Below the pieces are notes generated by a model. The model ran no database searches, had not been told where the DNA came from, and worked only from the letters and a program-made list of their open reading frames with translations. A program made the translations under genes and the position numbers. Source: an uncultured Mediterraneibacter sp. (GTDB taxonomy: Bacteria; Bacillota; Clostridia; Lachnospirales; Lachnospiraceae). Taken from it: a stretch of DNA of 64,000 nucleotides. Of the stretch, positions 47,947 to 64,000 are shown one piece after another (position 1 is the stretch's first letter; every line of letters starts with the position of its first letter). The stretch spans positions 24,157 to 88,156 of the forward strand of contig CALWTQ010000005.1 in assembly GCA_944384505.1 (NCBI GenBank), in the 5' to 3' direction.

Positions 47947-48279
47947 GTGAATATAGGGCTTGGTATACATGCGCAGCTGCCGGATGAGGGAAAGCATCCG
48001 GGCGGAGACACTTTGGCAGGAAGGCAGACAGAAGCGGCCTGCGGGGTGTGGTTTACAAGTACGGGAAATGTAATGCCCAGGATGGTGAAGTATAAGGATC
48101 AGGAGGGCGTGATCCGGACGATCACAGGAATTCGCATTCTGCAGCAGGAGAAGAAGCGCTACTGCGGGATCCCTGCGCTGGAATACCGGTGCAGTGCAGT
48201 GTCAGGAGGAACAGAGTACAGATTCCGTCTGTATTATTATATGGAAACCTGCTGCTGGAGAATAAGCCGGGAGGTATAA
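47947..48279 (+). CDS. Small uncharacterised protein of the SOS cassette
   Basis: A 110-residue protein starting at GTG 47947 after AGGAGG. It has many Tyr and Arg residues, the stretch VMPRMVKYKDQEGVIRTITG and the C-terminal YRCSAVSGGTEYRFRLYYYM, suggesting a small beta-rich fold. I have no family name for it. Placed 13 nt after the polymerase and 2 nt before SRAP, it should be induced together with them by DNA damage and might assist either. Confidence 0.65.
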   Translation: MNIGLGIHAQLPDEGKHPGGDTLAGRQTEAACGVWFTSTGNVMPRMVKYKDQEGVIRTITGIRILQQEKKRYCGIPALEYRCSAVSGGTEYRFRLYYYMETCCWRISREV

Positions 48280-48281
48280 AA

Positions 48282-48863
48282 ATGTGTGGAAGATATTATG
48301 TGGATGAAGAGATGGCGCGGGAGGTCGAACGCCTGATCCGTATTCTGGACGGGCGAATGCGGATACCGCACGCGGGCGACGTATATCCGTCCCGGAGAGC
48401 GGCGGTAATCAGGGCGGAGAATAAGAGTCTGGCTCCGGACGAGATGACATGGGGATTCCCCGGTTTCGGCAAAAAAGGCCTGCTGATCAACGCAAGGGCA
48501 GAGACAGCCCTGACGAAACCCACCTATCGGGAAAGCGTGGAGAAAAGGCGCTGTGTGATTCCCGCGAGAGGATTTTACGAATGGAATTCCGCAAAAGAAA
48601 AGTTTACATTCCGAAGCAGAGAGCATGAGCCGCTCTTTATCGCGGGATGCTACAACTGGTTTGGGGAAGAGGAACAGTTTGTGATACTGACCACCGGCGC
48701 AAACGCATCCATGCGCCCGGTGCACGATAGAATGCCTCTGATTCTTAAATCCGGGGAAGTGGAACCATGGCTGACGGATGCCTCCGTCACCAGAGAAATC
48801 CTGGGAAAGACGCCGGAAGAACTGGAACGCAGTACAGAATATGAGCAGATAAAACTCTTCTGA
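48282..48863 (+). CDS. SOS response-associated peptidase (SRAP, HMCES/YedK-like)
   Basis: A 193-residue protein that forms a covalent crosslink with abasic sites in single-stranded DNA, shielding them during replication. All key residues are present: Cys2 after Met1 removal (MCGRYYVDE), Asn70 (INARAET), Glu100 (GFYEW) and His148 (PVHDRMP). The start must be the ATG at 48282, giving Met-Cys; upstream in-frame ATGs would bury the catalytic Cys. GGGAGGT precedes it. Last gene of the LexA-controlled operon; the structured repeat begins 17 nt after the stop. Confidence 0.95.
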   Translation: MCGRYYVDEEMAREVERLIRILDGRMRIPHAGDVYPSRRAAVIRAENKSLAPDEMTWGFPGFGKKGLLINARAETALTKPTYRESVEKRRCVIPARGFYEWNSAKEKFTFRSREHEPLFIAGCYNWFGEEEQFVILTTGANASMRPVHDRMPLILKSGEVEPWLTDASVTREILGKTPEELERSTEYEQIKLF

Positions 48864-48879
48864 AGACAATTCAATTCAG

Positions 48880-49447
48880 CAGCTATTTAGTGCAATAACT
48901 CTTTTCGTCAAATGTGTCCGGAAGCGGAGGGGATGTTTGAAACGTGTTCTTGGAGAGGGGACGTGTGTGTACTGCTCCGTTCCGGAATCCGGGAAGGATC
49001 TAAGAAGTCTAAGAGCTGTTTAAATGCAAAGCGGCGCTCCGGGCAACTCGCTCTGCTCAGACAATCCCTGCGCGCCGCTTAACAACAGCTCTCCGACTTC
49101 TAAGATCTTCCATCAGATTCCTCCAAAGTCACAGTCCCCACACGCCCCTCTCCAAGAACTTACGCTTCAACCATCCCCTCCGCTTCCTGCGCATTTCCTA
49201 TTGGAAGTGTTATTGCCCTAAACAGGCTGAAACGTACAACTGGCGCGGCTTGAGGGCTTTCCTCTGCGAAAGCTTTCCGGCCGCGCCGTACTTCTGGAAG
49301 CTATATATTCACTGGCTTCCGTCTTGAAAACCCCAGAAAACAGCCCCATTTCGAGAAAAATTCTGCGGGGATGGAGGACGGCGACGGGCGCCTTCCTCCA
49401 TCCCCGCAGAATACGTCTTGAGAATCGACTCTGTTTTCGGCCGTTTT
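48880..49447 (+). repeat. Large structured non-coding element, copy 1
   Basis: A roughly 570-bp region without a credible gene, repeated at 63484-64000. Domain 1 (48880-49229) is one giant imperfect hairpin, closed by CAGC (48880-48883) with GCTG (49226-49229), with further paired blocks at 48920-48935 with 49172-49187, 48957-48967 with 49139-49148 (bulged A at 48961), 49012-49020 with 49084-49092, and 49030-49037 with 49072-49079. Domain 2 is a hairpin at 49242-49287. Domain 3 has a conserved AGCTATATATTCACTG. Domain 4 is a perfect 19-bp stem (49360-49378 with 49394-49412), flanked by CAGAAAACAG and CTGTTTTCGG. Right boundary is approximate. Confidence 0.85.
49360..49412. terminator. Perfect 19-bp hairpin ending the repeat element
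   Basis: Arms 49360-49378 and 49394-49412 are exact complements, loop 15 nt. It could end transcription of domain 1-3, though no T-run directly follows; a T-rich stretch comes at 49433-49447. Confidence 0.55.
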
Positions 49448-49534
49448 ACAGTAGGGTGTTAGTGAACTTTATAGCTGATACACGTAAATATTGTGTAAAT
49501 ATTTCAACTTATGGTAGCCCTTTCCCGGCAATCT

Positions 49535-49543
49535 TGATAAAAT
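49535..49543 (+). promoter_or_regulatory. Extended -10 promoter element of pyk
   Basis: TG-A-TAAAAT is an extended -10 element about 35 nt before the pyruvate kinase start. No -35 box is evident at standard spacing. Confidence 0.4.
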
Positions 49544-49577
49544 AGAAACGAGTATTTTTACAGGAGGTCACAAACCA

Positions 49578-51002
49578 ATGCGGAGAACTAAGATTGTATG
49601 TACTCTCGGCCCGTCTACGGATAAAGGGGATATACTGGAAACTATGGTCAGGGAAGGGATGGACGTCGCCAGGTTCAACTTTTCCCACGGGACACATCCG
49701 GAGCAGAAGGAGCGCCTGGACAGGTTGAAGGAGATCAGATCACGGCTGGGGAAGCACGTAGCGGCTCTTCTTGACACAAAAGGGCCGGAGATCAGGATTA
49801 AGACATTTTCGGAAGGAAAGGTTGAGCTGGAAGAGGGGCAGGTATTTACCCTTACGCCGGATGATGTTGAGGGGACAAAGGACAAGGTGTCCGTCACATA
49901 TGAAGATCTGTATAAGGATGTTCATGAAGGGGGACGCGTTCTGATTGACGACGGGCTGATTGAGCTGGAAGTTGTGAGCATTGAGGGGAAAGATGTTCAC
50001 TGTGTTGTGAAGAACGGGGGCACGGTGTCCGACAGAAAGGGAATCAACCTTCCGGGGGTTGAGGTCAGCATGCCGTTTATCAGTGAGAAGGACCGGGAAG
50101 ATATTCTCTTTGGGATCCGGGAAGGTTTTGACTTTATTGCTGCTTCATTTACGAGGACGGCGGAGGATGTGGAGGAGATCAGGACTCTTCTGAGAGAGAA
50201 CGGCGGAGAGAAGATCAACATTATCGCCAAGATAGAGAATCAGCAGGGGGTGAATAATATTGACAGCATTATTGAGGCGGCTGACGGGATTATGATCGCC
50301 CGCGGCGATATGGGCGTAGAGATTCCTCTGGAAGAGGTTCCGGTGATTCAGAAGAAGATCATCGCGAAAGTATATCATGCCGGGAAGCAGGTGATCACGG
50401 CGACTCAGATGCTGGATTCGATGATGAAGAACCCTAGGCCGACCAGAGCTGAGACGACTGACGTGGCGAATGCGATCTATCAGGGGACAAGCGCGATCAT
50501 GCTCTCAGGGGAGACTGCGGCGGGCAGATATCCCATTGAAGCCCTGCGAACGATGGTGAAGATCGCGGTGCGCACGGAGAGCGACATCCCCTACAGCCAG
50601 CATTTCAGCATGCGGGAAAAGGAGGAGAAGCCGGATATGACGACAGCGATTTCTCACGCAACCTGCATGACGGCGATCGACCTGGACGCTAAGGCCATCA
50701 TCACGGTCAGCAAGTCCGGCCATACTGCGCGCATGATCTCGAAGTACAGGCCGGGATGTCAGATTGTGGGATGTTCTCCGGATGAGGGAACCTGCAGGAA
50801 GCTGAATCTGTCCTGGGGAGTCCTGCCTGTCCTGATTAAAGAGGAGTACAGCATGGAGGTCCTTTTCCTGCACGCGACAGAGGCGGCGGAGAGAAAAGGA
50901 TATGTGAAAGAAGGGGATGTTGTTGTGCTTACAGCGGGAGTGCCGCTTGGAAAACCTGGCAATACAAACCTGATTAAGTCAACGCTGGTGGGAGAATACT
51001 GA
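49578..51002 (+). CDS. pyk: Pyruvate kinase
   Basis: A 474-residue glycolytic enzyme converting phosphoenolpyruvate and ADP to pyruvate and ATP. Hallmarks: RRTKIVCTLGPSTD, ARFNFSHG, LLDTKGPEIR, the catalytic signature IIAKIENQQGVNN, MIARGDMGVEIP and the ATQMLDSMMKNPRPTRAE block. It lacks the extra C-terminal phosphohistidine-like domain found in Bacillus pyruvate kinases, so it is the short form. AGGAGGT precedes the ATG by 9 nt; single-gene transcription unit with a terminator downstream. Confidence 0.97.
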   Translation: MRRTKIVCTLGPSTDKGDILETMVREGMDVARFNFSHGTHPEQKERLDRLKEIRSRLGKHVAALLDTKGPEIRIKTFSEGKVELEEGQVFTLTPDDVEGTKDKVSVTYEDLYKDVHEGGRVLIDDGLIELEVVSIEGKDVHCVVKNGGTVSDRKGINLPGVEVSMPFISEKDREDILFGIREGFDFIAASFTRTAEDVEEIRTLLRENGGEKINIIAKIENQQGVNNIDSIIEAADGIMIARGDMGVEIPLEEVPVIQKKIIAKVYHAGKQVITATQMLDSMMKNPRPTRAETTDVANAIYQGTSAIMLSGETAAGRYPIEALRTMVKIAVRTESDIPYSQHFSMREKEEKPDMTTAISHATCMTAIDLDAKAIITVSKSGHTARMISKYRPGCQIVGCSPDEGTCRKLNLSWGVLPVLIKEEYSMEVLFLHATEAAERKGYVKEGDVVVLTAGVPLGKPGNTNLIKSTLVGEY

Positions 51003-61554: not shown

Positions 61555-62469
61555 ATGAAGATAGCTGTAATCGGCGCCGGCGCTATGGGATCTATTTACG
61601 GAGGACACCTGTCCCTTAAGAATGAAGTGTATATGGTGGACACATCAGCTCCAATCGTAGAACAGATTAATGCGGCCGGAATTAAAATTGAAGAAAATGA
61701 TACGGAAAATATCTATCGTCCGAAGGCTGTTACTACAACAGAGGGCCTGGAGCCGGTAGATCTTATTATTCTTTTTGTAAAATCTCTGTTTTCACGGGCT
61801 GCGCTTTCCGGAAATAAAGGTATCATCGGACCGGACACATACGTTATGACACTTCAGAACGGTTCCGGACACGAGGATCTGATCCGGGAGTTCGTACCGG
61901 AGGATCATATCATTATCGGCACAACTAATGACAACGGCGCGGTTCTCGGGCCTGCTCATGTAAAACATGGCGGAGTGGGTGAGACAAATATCGGTATGCT
62001 GACAGAAGATACAAACGGATTTCTTTCGAAGCTGAAAGAGACATTTGACGAATGTGGCTTCCAGACAACAGTCAGTGAGAATATCCAGCAGCTGATCTGG
62101 GACAAGCTGTTTACGAATGTATCTCTCAGCGCTGTTACCGGTATCCTGCAGGTTGACATGGGCTATATCGCGGCTAATGAGCATGCATGGAACATGACAG
62201 TACAGCTGATCCATGAGGCTGCGGCTGTGGCGAGAGGCCTTGGCCTGAAAGCAGACGATGATGCAATCATCGCTAAGGTAAAGAAGACATCAGAAATGTC
62301 TCCGAACGGATGTACATCCATCCGGGCAGACCTGCGTGACGGAAGAAAATCAGAGGTGGATACAATCAGCGGCTCTGTAGTCAGAGCTTCAAAGAAGTGT
62401 GGAGTTCCGGCTCCGAGCCATGAGTTCCTTGTAGAGATGGTACATGCAATGGAGGACAAACAAAAATGA
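61555..62469 (+). CDS. Ketopantoate reductase-family dehydrogenase (ApbA/PanE-like)
   Basis: A 304-residue NADPH-dependent 2-oxoacid reductase. Rossmann motif IAVIGAGAMGSIYGGHL at residues 4-20, LFVKS strand, TLQNGSGHEDLI and KLFTNVSLSAVTGIL, where the catalytic Lys is KLFTN. Because it lies in a catabolic operon, the substrate is probably a 2-hydroxy/2-oxo acid other than ketopantoate. Start ATG 61555 after GTGGTGGAAG; a GTG at 61543 is possible. Overlaps the alcohol dehydrogenase gene by 4 nt. Confidence 0.85.
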   Translation: MKIAVIGAGAMGSIYGGHLSLKNEVYMVDTSAPIVEQINAAGIKIEENDTENIYRPKAVTTTEGLEPVDLIILFVKSLFSRAALSGNKGIIGPDTYVMTLQNGSGHEDLIREFVPEDHIIIGTTNDNGAVLGPAHVKHGGVGETNIGMLTEDTNGFLSKLKETFDECGFQTTVSENIQQLIWDKLFTNVSLSAVTGILQVDMGYIAANEHAWNMTVQLIHEAAAVARGLGLKADDDAIIAKVKKTSEMSPNGCTSIRADLRDGRKSEVDTISGSVVRASKKCGVPAPSHEFLVEMVHAMEDKQK

Positions 62470-63482
62470 AAGCTGTTCAGGTAGTTAAACCGGGAGAAAT
62501 GAAGATCCTGGATATAGAAAAACCAGTTATTGATGAGCATAATAACGTACTTGTAAAAATGACTGCCGCAGGAATCTGCGGTTCTGACAGAGGTATTTAT
62601 CACGGAACAAATGCGGCCGCTACATACCCGCGCATTATCGGACATGAGATGGTGGGCGTTGTAGATGAGATCGGACCGGACGTGAAGAACTTAAAGGTTG
62701 GCGACCGCGTAATCATCAACCAGGTAATCAGCTGCGGACACTGCTATCCATGCAGCATCGGCCGCGGAAATGTATGTGATAACCTTCAGGTGCGCGGCGT
62801 CCATGTAGATGGAGGATACCGTGAGTATATCGCAGTGCCGGAAGGAGACTGCTATATTCTGCCGGATTCGCTCTCCGATACGGACGCGGTTATGATTGAG
62901 CCTACGACAATCGCAATACAGTCCTGTTCAAGAGCAGAGCTCAAAGAGGACGATATGCTGCTGATCTTCGGCGCGGGAGCGCTTGGAAGCTCAATTCTCA
63001 AGATCGCGCGCCTGACCTGCAAACACATTATCGTTACAGATGTCGTAGATGAAAAGCTGGAAGAGGCGAAAAAGAACGGCGCTATGTATACGATCAATGG
63101 AATGAAAGAAGATCTGGTAGAGAAAGTGAAAGAGTATACTCACGGACATGGAAGCACAGTATCCATTGACGCTGCCTGCACAAAGGATTCCCTGATGTCC
63201 CTGTTAAAGGCTACAGGAAACGCTGGGCGCGTAATGACTATGGGATTCTCCACAGCTCCGACAGAGGTAAATCAGTTCCTGATCACATCAAAAGAGCTGG
63301 ATGTGAGAGGCTCCAGACTGCAGAACAGAATGTTCGGAAAGGCAATCGAGCTGATCAATGAAGGCAAGCTGGATCTTACAGGCTCCGCTTCTCACACATA
63401 CCCGATTGAGAAGGCACAGGAGGCCTTTGACTTTGCGGACAGCGGAGATCCGTCGATCCGGAAGATAGTGTTCACATTCTAA
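62466..63482 (+). CDS. Zinc-dependent alcohol dehydrogenase (sugar-acid type MDR)
   Basis: A 338-residue medium-chain dehydrogenase. Catalytic zinc ligands Cys38 (AGICGSD), His60-Glu61 (GHEMVG); structural zinc from Cys90, Cys93, Cys96 and Cys104; nucleotide motif FGAGALGSS. Related enzymes act on L-idonate, L-galactonate, threonine or sorbitol. The close association with YiaK/YiaL-like proteins makes an aldonate or a polyol plausible. ATG overlaps the preceding stop. Last gene of the operon; the structured repeat begins right after its stop. Confidence 0.88.
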   Translation: MKAVQVVKPGEMKILDIEKPVIDEHNNVLVKMTAAGICGSDRGIYHGTNAAATYPRIIGHEMVGVVDEIGPDVKNLKVGDRVIINQVISCGHCYPCSIGRGNVCDNLQVRGVHVDGGYREYIAVPEGDCYILPDSLSDTDAVMIEPTTIAIQSCSRAELKEDDMLLIFGAGALGSSILKIARLTCKHIIVTDVVDEKLEEAKKNGAMYTINGMKEDLVEKVKEYTHGHGSTVSIDAACTKDSLMSLLKATGNAGRVMTMGFSTAPTEVNQFLITSKELDVRGSRLQNRMFGKAIELINEGKLDLTGSASHTYPIEKAQEAFDFADSGDPSIRKIVFTF

Positions 63483-63483
63483 A

Positions 63484-64000
63484 CAGCTATAAAGTTCAAT
63501 AACACTTTCCGGCAAAATGTGTTCGGAAGCGGAGCGGATGGTTTGCGATACGTATTCTGTGAAAGGGGACAGCCGTGCGATGTTCCGTTCCAGAATCCGG
63601 AAAATCTAGCAGGCCGAAGAGATGTTTAAATACAAAGCGGCGCTCCGGGCAACTCGCTCCGCTCAGACAATCCCTGCGCGCCGCTTAACAACATCTCTCC
63701 GCCCTAAAGATTTTCAGCGGATTCCTCCAAAGTCACATCTCCCGGCTGCCCCCTTCCTCAGAAAGTATACTCAAACCATCCGCTCCGCTTCCTGCGCATT
63801 CCCTGTCGGAATGTCATTGCCCAAATAGGCTGAAACGCACAACTGGCGCGGTTTGTAGCCTTTCGGCTGCGAAAGCTTTCCGGCCGCGCCTGCTTCTCGC
63901 AGCAGCTATATATTCACTGACTTCCGGTTTGAAAAAGCCCAGAAAACAGCCCCATTTCGAGAAAAATTCTGCGGGGATGAAGGATGGCGATGGATGACTT
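63484..64000 (+). repeat. Large structured non-coding element, copy 2 (cut by window end)
   Basis: Second copy of the element at 48880-49447, in the same orientation and collinear from the first base to the terminal hairpin (485 versus 487 nt from start to GCGGGGATG). Domain 1 (63484-63832) keeps the same stems with altered but still complementary bases: 63525-63540 with 63777-63792, 63565-63575 with 63743-63752, and 63618-63626 with 63690-63698. The apex (63634-63689) is nearly unchanged. The last hairpin runs past the edge. It follows the alcohol dehydrogenase stop by a single base. Confidence 0.85.

Follow-up and report, generated by a model that had tools for sequence, protein, structure and literature searches.

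The bcr1 repeats of the Bacillus cereus group are mobile repeats with an RNA-like secondary structure, and the GOLLD, ROOL, OLE, HEARO and raiA RNAs are large structured non-coding elements. REPs are 20–40 bp long (PMC3733652). Structured-RNA candidates of human microbiomes are palindromic in 250 of 3161 cases, and 230 of these 250 have predicted terminators (PMC8040213). The element that we describe resembles REP/BIME and MITE elements, with membership in neither established. Two copies of it lie in the window, the 64-kb stretch of DNA analyzed (C5:24157-88156), whose position 64000 coincides with the end of contig C5. Their features and the adjoining genes are as follows, in positions of the window.

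48189..48863, plus strand: upstream gene of copy 1, SRAP family (PF02586), with 16 nt between its stop and copy 1
48880..49477, plus strand: element copy 1, a short form of 598 bp, from its ends, paired at C5:73036-73633 of the contig, and its fold
48880..48899, plus strand: left terminal 20-mer CAGCTATTTAGTGCAATAAC; 206 left-end matches genome-wide at ≤3 mismatches, control 0
48880..49229, minus strand (proposed folding strand): giant hairpin 1, ∼350 nt, from the fold and from A.C versus G.U counts
48977..49133, minus strand: conserved hairpin core of copy 1, covariance model R1, 145.3 bits
49045..49065, minus strand: apex, ATTGTCTGAGC-AGA-GCGAGTT, from sequence reading and an apex pattern search
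49234..49291, plus strand: hairpin 2, small and GC-rich, between the two giant hairpins, from the fold
49298..49477, plus strand: hairpin 3, internally deleted here and lacking the apex; in full copies homologous to hairpin 1 and inverted, from the fold and alignment
49458..49477, plus strand: right terminal 20-mer GTTAGTGAACTTTATAGCTG, inverted relative to the left end; 257 matches at ≤3 mismatches, control 0
49578..51002, plus strand: downstream gene of copy 1, starting 100 nt past it, a putative pyruvate kinase gene, as we take it to be from its sequence
62466..63482, plus strand: zinc-binding dehydrogenase gene, with 1 nt between its stop and copy 2
63484..64000, plus strand: element copy 2, cut by the end of the window and contig, from sequence and contig position
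63585..63737, minus strand: conserved hairpin core of copy 2, covariance model R1, 142.1 bits

An earlier note on this DNA had described two repeat copies that fold into a ∼350-nt hairpin plus smaller ones. Both copies are real, and folding of copy 1 yields that architecture (48880-49229, 49234-49291 and 49298-49477), but the extents needed correction: copy 1 stops at 49477, not 49447, and copy 2 is truncated at 64000. A letter-by-letter check of both copies agrees with each compensatory change that had been listed. The pair G48930/C49177 becomes C63535/G63782, the stem CGTGTG/CACACG at 48962-48967/49139-49144 becomes CAGCCG/CGGCTG at 63570-63575/63743-63748, and C49016/G49088 becomes A63622/T63694; the apex difference is T at 49054 versus C at 63660. 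Compensatory changes by themselves are not proof of RNA, and single-stranded DNA fits equally well. Copy 1 owes its short form to loss of the inner part of its third hairpin, and covariance model R1 matches it in hairpin 1 only. The folding strand has a purine-rich 5′ arm (minus strand of 48977-49133) with GGAGG six bases ahead of an ATG; relatives inspected by eye do not preserve a reading frame there.

We searched the host genome (3.95 Mb, 141 contigs) with the two terminal patterns. The right end, GTTAGTGAACTTTATAGCTG, has 257 matches at ≤3 mismatches and the left end, CAGCTATTTAGCGCACTAAC, has 206, against 0 for the reversed pattern in each case, which places the repeat beyond chance. Because 12 of 175 distinct ends in the genome stretches examined match both patterns, the 463 matches correspond to ∼430 ends, or ∼200 copies with two ends each, and we estimate that the element is present ∼200 times in the genome. 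Nearly all ends found at ≤3 mismatches in these stretches belong to an element, with three exceptions. A full copy is ∼760 bp long, has 20-bp inverted ends and holds a small hairpin between two giant ones, which are homologous and inverted relative to each other. In 379 kb of the genome, 55 end pairs are less than 1500 bp apart (one element being listed twice); 35 of them span 750–775 bp, and the others, copy 1 included, are mostly forms of 403–628 bp with internal deletions. A contig start is found no more than 800 nt from at least 51 of the right-hand ends listed; the repeats are thus a frequent place of assembly breaks and shape the assembly.

Some copies depart from this plan. In a 1026-bp pair at C107:2258-3283, a left end is followed by an acetyltransferase-like gene (by sequence reading) and then by a right half-element, which may reflect cargo capture or the decay of two copies. 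Just outside some copies (L006, L013, L019, L022 and L030), a second end motif of 15–16 nt is found, sometimes giving the gene's stop codon. An exact pattern search for a standalone short form of the doubled end motif returned 0, and short palindromic target sites, which the doubled ends of some copies had suggested, were rejected on this result.

The relation between the two giant hairpins was established from 119 unique hairpins of the host genome, gathered with an HMM of hairpin 1, of which 11 without a plus-strand apex were dropped. Alignment and clustering separate the remaining 108 into two groups, of 61 and 47, corresponding to hairpin 1 and the reverse complement of hairpin 3. The two hairpins align as one family, and the apex that they share is on opposite strands. 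Outward pairing of this kind recurs at two loci of genus relatives (L192 and L168) and at one of another genus (L392); the exception is L399, also of another genus, where two hairpins run in the same direction.

By DNA similarity, the element is found in 23 of 99 genomes searched, own included, all of one genus, taken to be Mediterraneibacter from the nearest pyruvate-kinase matches among named genomes. Exact matches to the apex pattern AACTCGC-N-GCTCAGACAAT number from 0 to 175 across 58 genomes of the genus, 22 of which have the pattern (175 matches in the host, 65 in genome G026). Of 250 genera sampled, 5 have it, the host's own among them; controls gave 0 in both searches. A covariance model of the core reaches further, to 30 of 299 sampled genera of the family Lachnospiraceae, own included, at E ≤ 0.001 (10 candidates scored per genome; the E-values are rough). 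Single occurrences call for separate mention. The apex pattern is present in five viral contigs, two of them hairpin-like, and a phage origin was rejected, as we estimate these matches to be near chance. An element of a relative, at G021:C4:54573-55336 (L061, L088, L162), found through a single right-end match, has an identical end and is 76% alike; recent transfer is possible.

The core alignment, from which the covariance model was built, comprises 53 hairpins, 45 from relatives and 8 of the host's own; it leaves out 12 of 57 relative hairpins (5 of other genera and 7 without the second loop motif) and 5 of 13 listed own hairpins. Sixteen columns, in the outer loop and apex region, are invariant, and 41 of 43 core pairs are changed on both sides. 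The earlier note had proposed a covariation check, and the signal is far above shuffles both within and beyond the genus. In the genus, paired cells amount to 92.1% versus 65.4% in shuffled alignments, and the covariation score is 0.791 versus 0.281 (0.125–0.206 in slid versions). Among 30 distinct rows from other genera, the corresponding values are 90.7% versus 50.7%, and 0.847 versus 0.188 (slid, 0.105–0.186), in an alignment fitted to the model. Stem sequences there differ widely, and the apex TGTCTGAGCGAAGCGAGTT and several internal loops recur. The hairpin core is kept by covariation in the genus and in other genera of the family.

Which strand folds may be read from the mismatches that the stems retain: were one strand to fold by itself, it should tolerate G-T (G-U), with A-C then showing on its complement. 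In 57 hairpins of 28 relatives (24 genus members and 4 from other genera), A-C mismatches on the AACTCGC strand number 178 versus 59 G-T. Counted by genome, 23 have the A-C excess on this strand versus 4 with the reverse and one tie; among the 24 genus members alone, counted by hand, the split is 22 versus 2, and of the four genomes of other genera, two lean the opposite way and one ties. Other mismatches on the same strand lean alike (AA 96 to TT 26, CC 52 to GG 15, CT/TC 118 to GA/AG 52). Within the host genome, with both hairpins summed, variants shared by at least two copies are biased (59 versus 28 columns) and singletons are not (37 versus 35). Our first alignment of own hairpins mixed the two hairpin groups and had no strand bias (G.U 226 versus A.C 213 cells), an imperfect motif-based split gave A.C 453 versus G.U 308, and 111 versus 59; the column counts given above come from the alignment after clustering. 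For other genera, the alignment fitted to the model has a transition bias of 55 to 25. A strand-neutral alignment of 29 of the 31 other-genus matches (one duplicate and one second copy omitted; three without an apex match) has transitions of G.U 50 versus A.C 38, which is not significant (p 0.24), and transversions of 101 to 43, in the same direction as the genus.

Since the two hairpins of an element point in opposite directions, a bias arising from the surroundings should cancel. The A-C excess on the AACTCGC strand suggests that, within the genus, the folding strand is the other one, 5′-ATTGTCTGAGC...GCGAGTT-3′. It appears to be antisense to the adjoining gene within the genus; outside the genus the signal is weak. 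The ∼350-nt hairpin had earlier been folded on the opposite strand from the one that keeps G-T/G-U mismatches in the genus, so that assignment is reversed here. Among 120 folding-strand apex segments of the host genome, CGAAGC (24), CGGAGC (22), CGGATGC (14), CAGAGC (12) and CAAAGC (10) lead, and loops of three bases, such as GAA or GGA, account for 88 of the 120 and, in relatives, for about half (34 of 63), both counted by hand. Three-base loops on a GC stem form very stable DNA mini-hairpins. Because so many of the host's own apex loops are of this kind, we lean weakly toward single-stranded DNA over RNA as the folding strand; the lower share in relatives counts against this.

The element is closely tied to gene ends. 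We took 179 unique ends with flanking sequence and looked for open frames of ≥90 codons whose 3′ end is no more than 60 nt away; 95 of the 179 face such a frame end. The boundary lies 0–9 nt past the stop in 51 of these 95 (at exactly 5 nt in 16) and 11–59 nt past it in 24, and in 20 the stop codon falls inside the element end. Random window positions lie 0–9 nt behind a stop in 1.5% of cases. Between element and gene start there are 46–168 nt in 41 of 56 cases, and the flank past the element often begins promoter-like, by eye. The hairpins are also oriented. For 52 hairpins of genus relatives, with hairpin ends approximated by folding, the 3′ side of the folding strand abuts the stop 27 times and the 5′ side 3 times (two-sided p 8e-6), and other genera, counted by hand, have the same tendency (10 versus 3). 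In the full element of this species both outer ends are folding-strand 3′ sides, so either can abut a gene.

No target-site duplication was detected in 55 rows, matches at k = 1 to 9 being within the shuffled range. At one site, the spacer between gyrA-like and rimP genes (names from sequence reading) is continuous and without the element in 17 aligned relatives; the stop-to-promoter spacer was measurable in 12 of the 17, where it is 4–42 nt, and not in the other 5. Such short spacers in relatives mean that purifying selection may account for much of the position behind stop codons. It surely contributes, but alone it gives no orientation rule. Behind a spoIVA-like gene, the model finds a hairpin in two (L316 and L326) of nine aligned relatives; L315 was skipped for one of the two sites, and L314 and L319 for the other. 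With a diverged hairpin in relatives and the element here, this is a shared old site or a hot spot. Sequence behind the spoIVA-like gene in L313 looks similar by eye and has no model match. That the element replaces a terminator was considered and rejected for the gyrA-like/rimP site: the 12 measured spacers of relatives (4–42 nt) have no terminator-like hairpin at ≤−7 kcal/mol. Flanks beyond the elements have one in 4 of 30 cases versus 1 of 64 control stops, by an insensitive scan.

No transposase, reverse transcriptase or other mobilizer of the element was found among the genome stretches examined, and no end pair less than 1500 bp apart encloses a mobility gene, save one (1433 bp) split by an IS200 insertion. 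Three of four wider end pairs (the fourth is 23,770 bp apart) were rejected as an autonomous partner, being separate elements with other genes between them, none transposase-like by eye. Next to the relatives' hairpins no transposase-like family recurs; the clusters that recur, named from sequence reading, are ABC-ATPase-like (7 frames), smaller ones at two to four loci, and frames inside hairpins. IS200-type transposase genes sit inside giant elements at two places, L362:1404-2080 and L358/L359, at element positions ∼343 and ∼147; a stretch holding a serine-recombinase-like gene (by sequence reading) seems to divide the second of these elements, leaving its parts on two contigs. The genome has a REP-associated tyrosine transposase (RAYT) gene at C50:19264-20031 (L361:1265-2032, minus), scoring 70.6 bits with NF047646, below the cut-off of 80. 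A small REP hairpin of its own with GTAG/CTAC, GGGGACGTAGTAAAAT...ATTTTACTACGTCCCC, lies to either side of this gene and is unlike the giant hairpin.

The element is present in high copy and has sharp 20-bp inverted ends, and related species lack it at the one corresponding site that was examined closely. We think it probably a non-autonomous mobile element whose single-stranded hairpin, as DNA or RNA, is the substrate of a putative enzyme acting in trans. The recognized unit would be a single strand with the apex 5′-TGTCTGAGC-loop-GCGAGTT-3′, antisense to the adjoining gene. A putative enzyme supplied in trans would bind the hairpin loops and apex and join the 3′ end of the strand (...TAGCTG) behind a stop codon. 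The element here, like that of some relatives, would combine a pair of these hairpins with their 3′ ends outward, allowing either outer end to abut a gene. The strand itself could be an antisense RNA, or it could be DNA that is single-stranded where, for instance, a replication fork or transcription bubble exposes it. The earlier note had left the choice between a structured RNA and a mobile element. Its mobile-element side agrees with a repeat that lies in 3′ regions and lacks a mobility gene of its own, and its structural side with the conserved, covarying fold, but an RNA of the sense strand is not favored.

The covariation and conserved loops are typical of structured RNA, and G.U is tolerated on the folding strand within the genus, so a structured antisense RNA acting on the adjoining gene or in trans, its copies being RNA genes or retro-inserted copies, must be weighed. 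The 3′ end of the strand lies at the gene end in 27 of 30 abutting cases, which would be the geometry expected of target-primed reverse transcription. Yet the hairpins of a full element lie on opposite strands, so that no one transcript has both in the folding sense; the segment 48800-49600 has one promoter-like site (mean 0.6 in shuffles) and no terminator-like site; and the preponderance of three-base apex loops in the host genome argues the same way. We regard this explanation as rather unlikely. The position 0–9 nt behind stops would also suit a control element of the 3′ UTR, in which an mRNA hairpin stabilizes the message, terminates it or slows release at the stop codon, like E. coli REPs within 15 nt of stops. 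There is a precedent in work cited in PMC12306157, by which REPs less than 16 nt from the stop codon downregulate translation. Such control is nonetheless improbable for the element, because within the genus the mRNA-sense stems carry A.C and not G.U, the opposite of selection for RNA pairing, and the same control would be needed behind different genes for ∼200 copies. The absence of a terminator-like hairpin from 48800-49600 also counts against it; 4 of 30 flanks beyond elements have one by the insensitive scan.

An ordinary MITE, functionless and with palindrome arms kept matched by template-switch correction, would have the inverted ends, the many copies, the absence of a mobility gene and the many internal-deletion forms that we observe, and such correction is established for quasi-palindromes. 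It leaves unexplained both the invariant loop and apex bases amid variable stems across genera and the strand asymmetry in shared, not singleton, variants. With the lack of a target duplication besides, we consider it quite improbable. A giant REP/BIME moved by the genome's own RAYT shares two inverted palindromes, an intergenic place behind genes and the lack of target duplication, and the genome does have one RAYT. That gene is flanked by its own different small REP, however, the element HMM has no match beside it, and relatives without an exact apex match (e.g., G031 and G025) also have Y1 genes of similar size, which makes this origin highly improbable. As a tentative and bolder step, the element may represent a new class of mobile element, in which the moving part is a single folded strand whose apex is fixed. 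A host or trans enzyme would join it, starting from the 3′ end, directly behind stop codons, via single-stranded DNA or target-primed reverse transcription of a hairpin RNA, and the class would have spread within one family of gut bacteria (matches in 30 of 299 sampled genera). If the single-strand reading is true, DNA would be inserted next to stop codons, without target duplication, in a manner not yet described, and which enzyme is responsible would become directly testable.

How the element stands to known systems depends on the feature compared. The earlier note named no matching family, and a comparison of the 64-kb window with the 4227 families of Rfam release 15 agrees, returning 0 matches at the gathering score and, at E up to 10, weak generic hairpin matches alone. 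GOLLD, ROOL, OLE, HEARO and raiA, which it resembles in being large, structured and non-coding, are thereby set apart from it, none reaching its cut-off in the window. Conserved hairpins this large, whose stems covary around invariant loop bases and whose position relative to stop codons is fixed, have no counterpart as a family in that release by the window search, and we found no published description of them in the open-licence PMC literature. With structured RNA classes as such, it shares covariation above controls. Compared by description alone, the bcr1 repeats are alike in being mobile with an RNA-like structure and differ in host family. The palindromic candidates of PMC8040213 are alike in having structures on both strands, again by description, and the two sets may overlap.

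With MITEs, the element shares terminal inverted repeats (its 20-bp ends), high copy number, internal-deletion forms and the lack of a mobility gene. It differs in having no target-site duplication in 55 rows and a structure that covaries in 30 of 299 genera. No parent transposon with the same ends was found among the genome stretches examined, three wider end pairs included. In contrast to REPs, the giant hairpins are mostly 190–460 nt long and end in CAGCTATTTAG rather than in a short palindrome with a GTAG/CGTC foot, and the local RAYT gene is flanked by a different REP and not by the same palindrome. With REP/BIME and RAYT systems, the element nevertheless has in common its palindromic nature, intergenic location near stop codons and the absence of observed target duplication, and hairpins 1 and 3 reproduce the inverted paired arrangement between genes.
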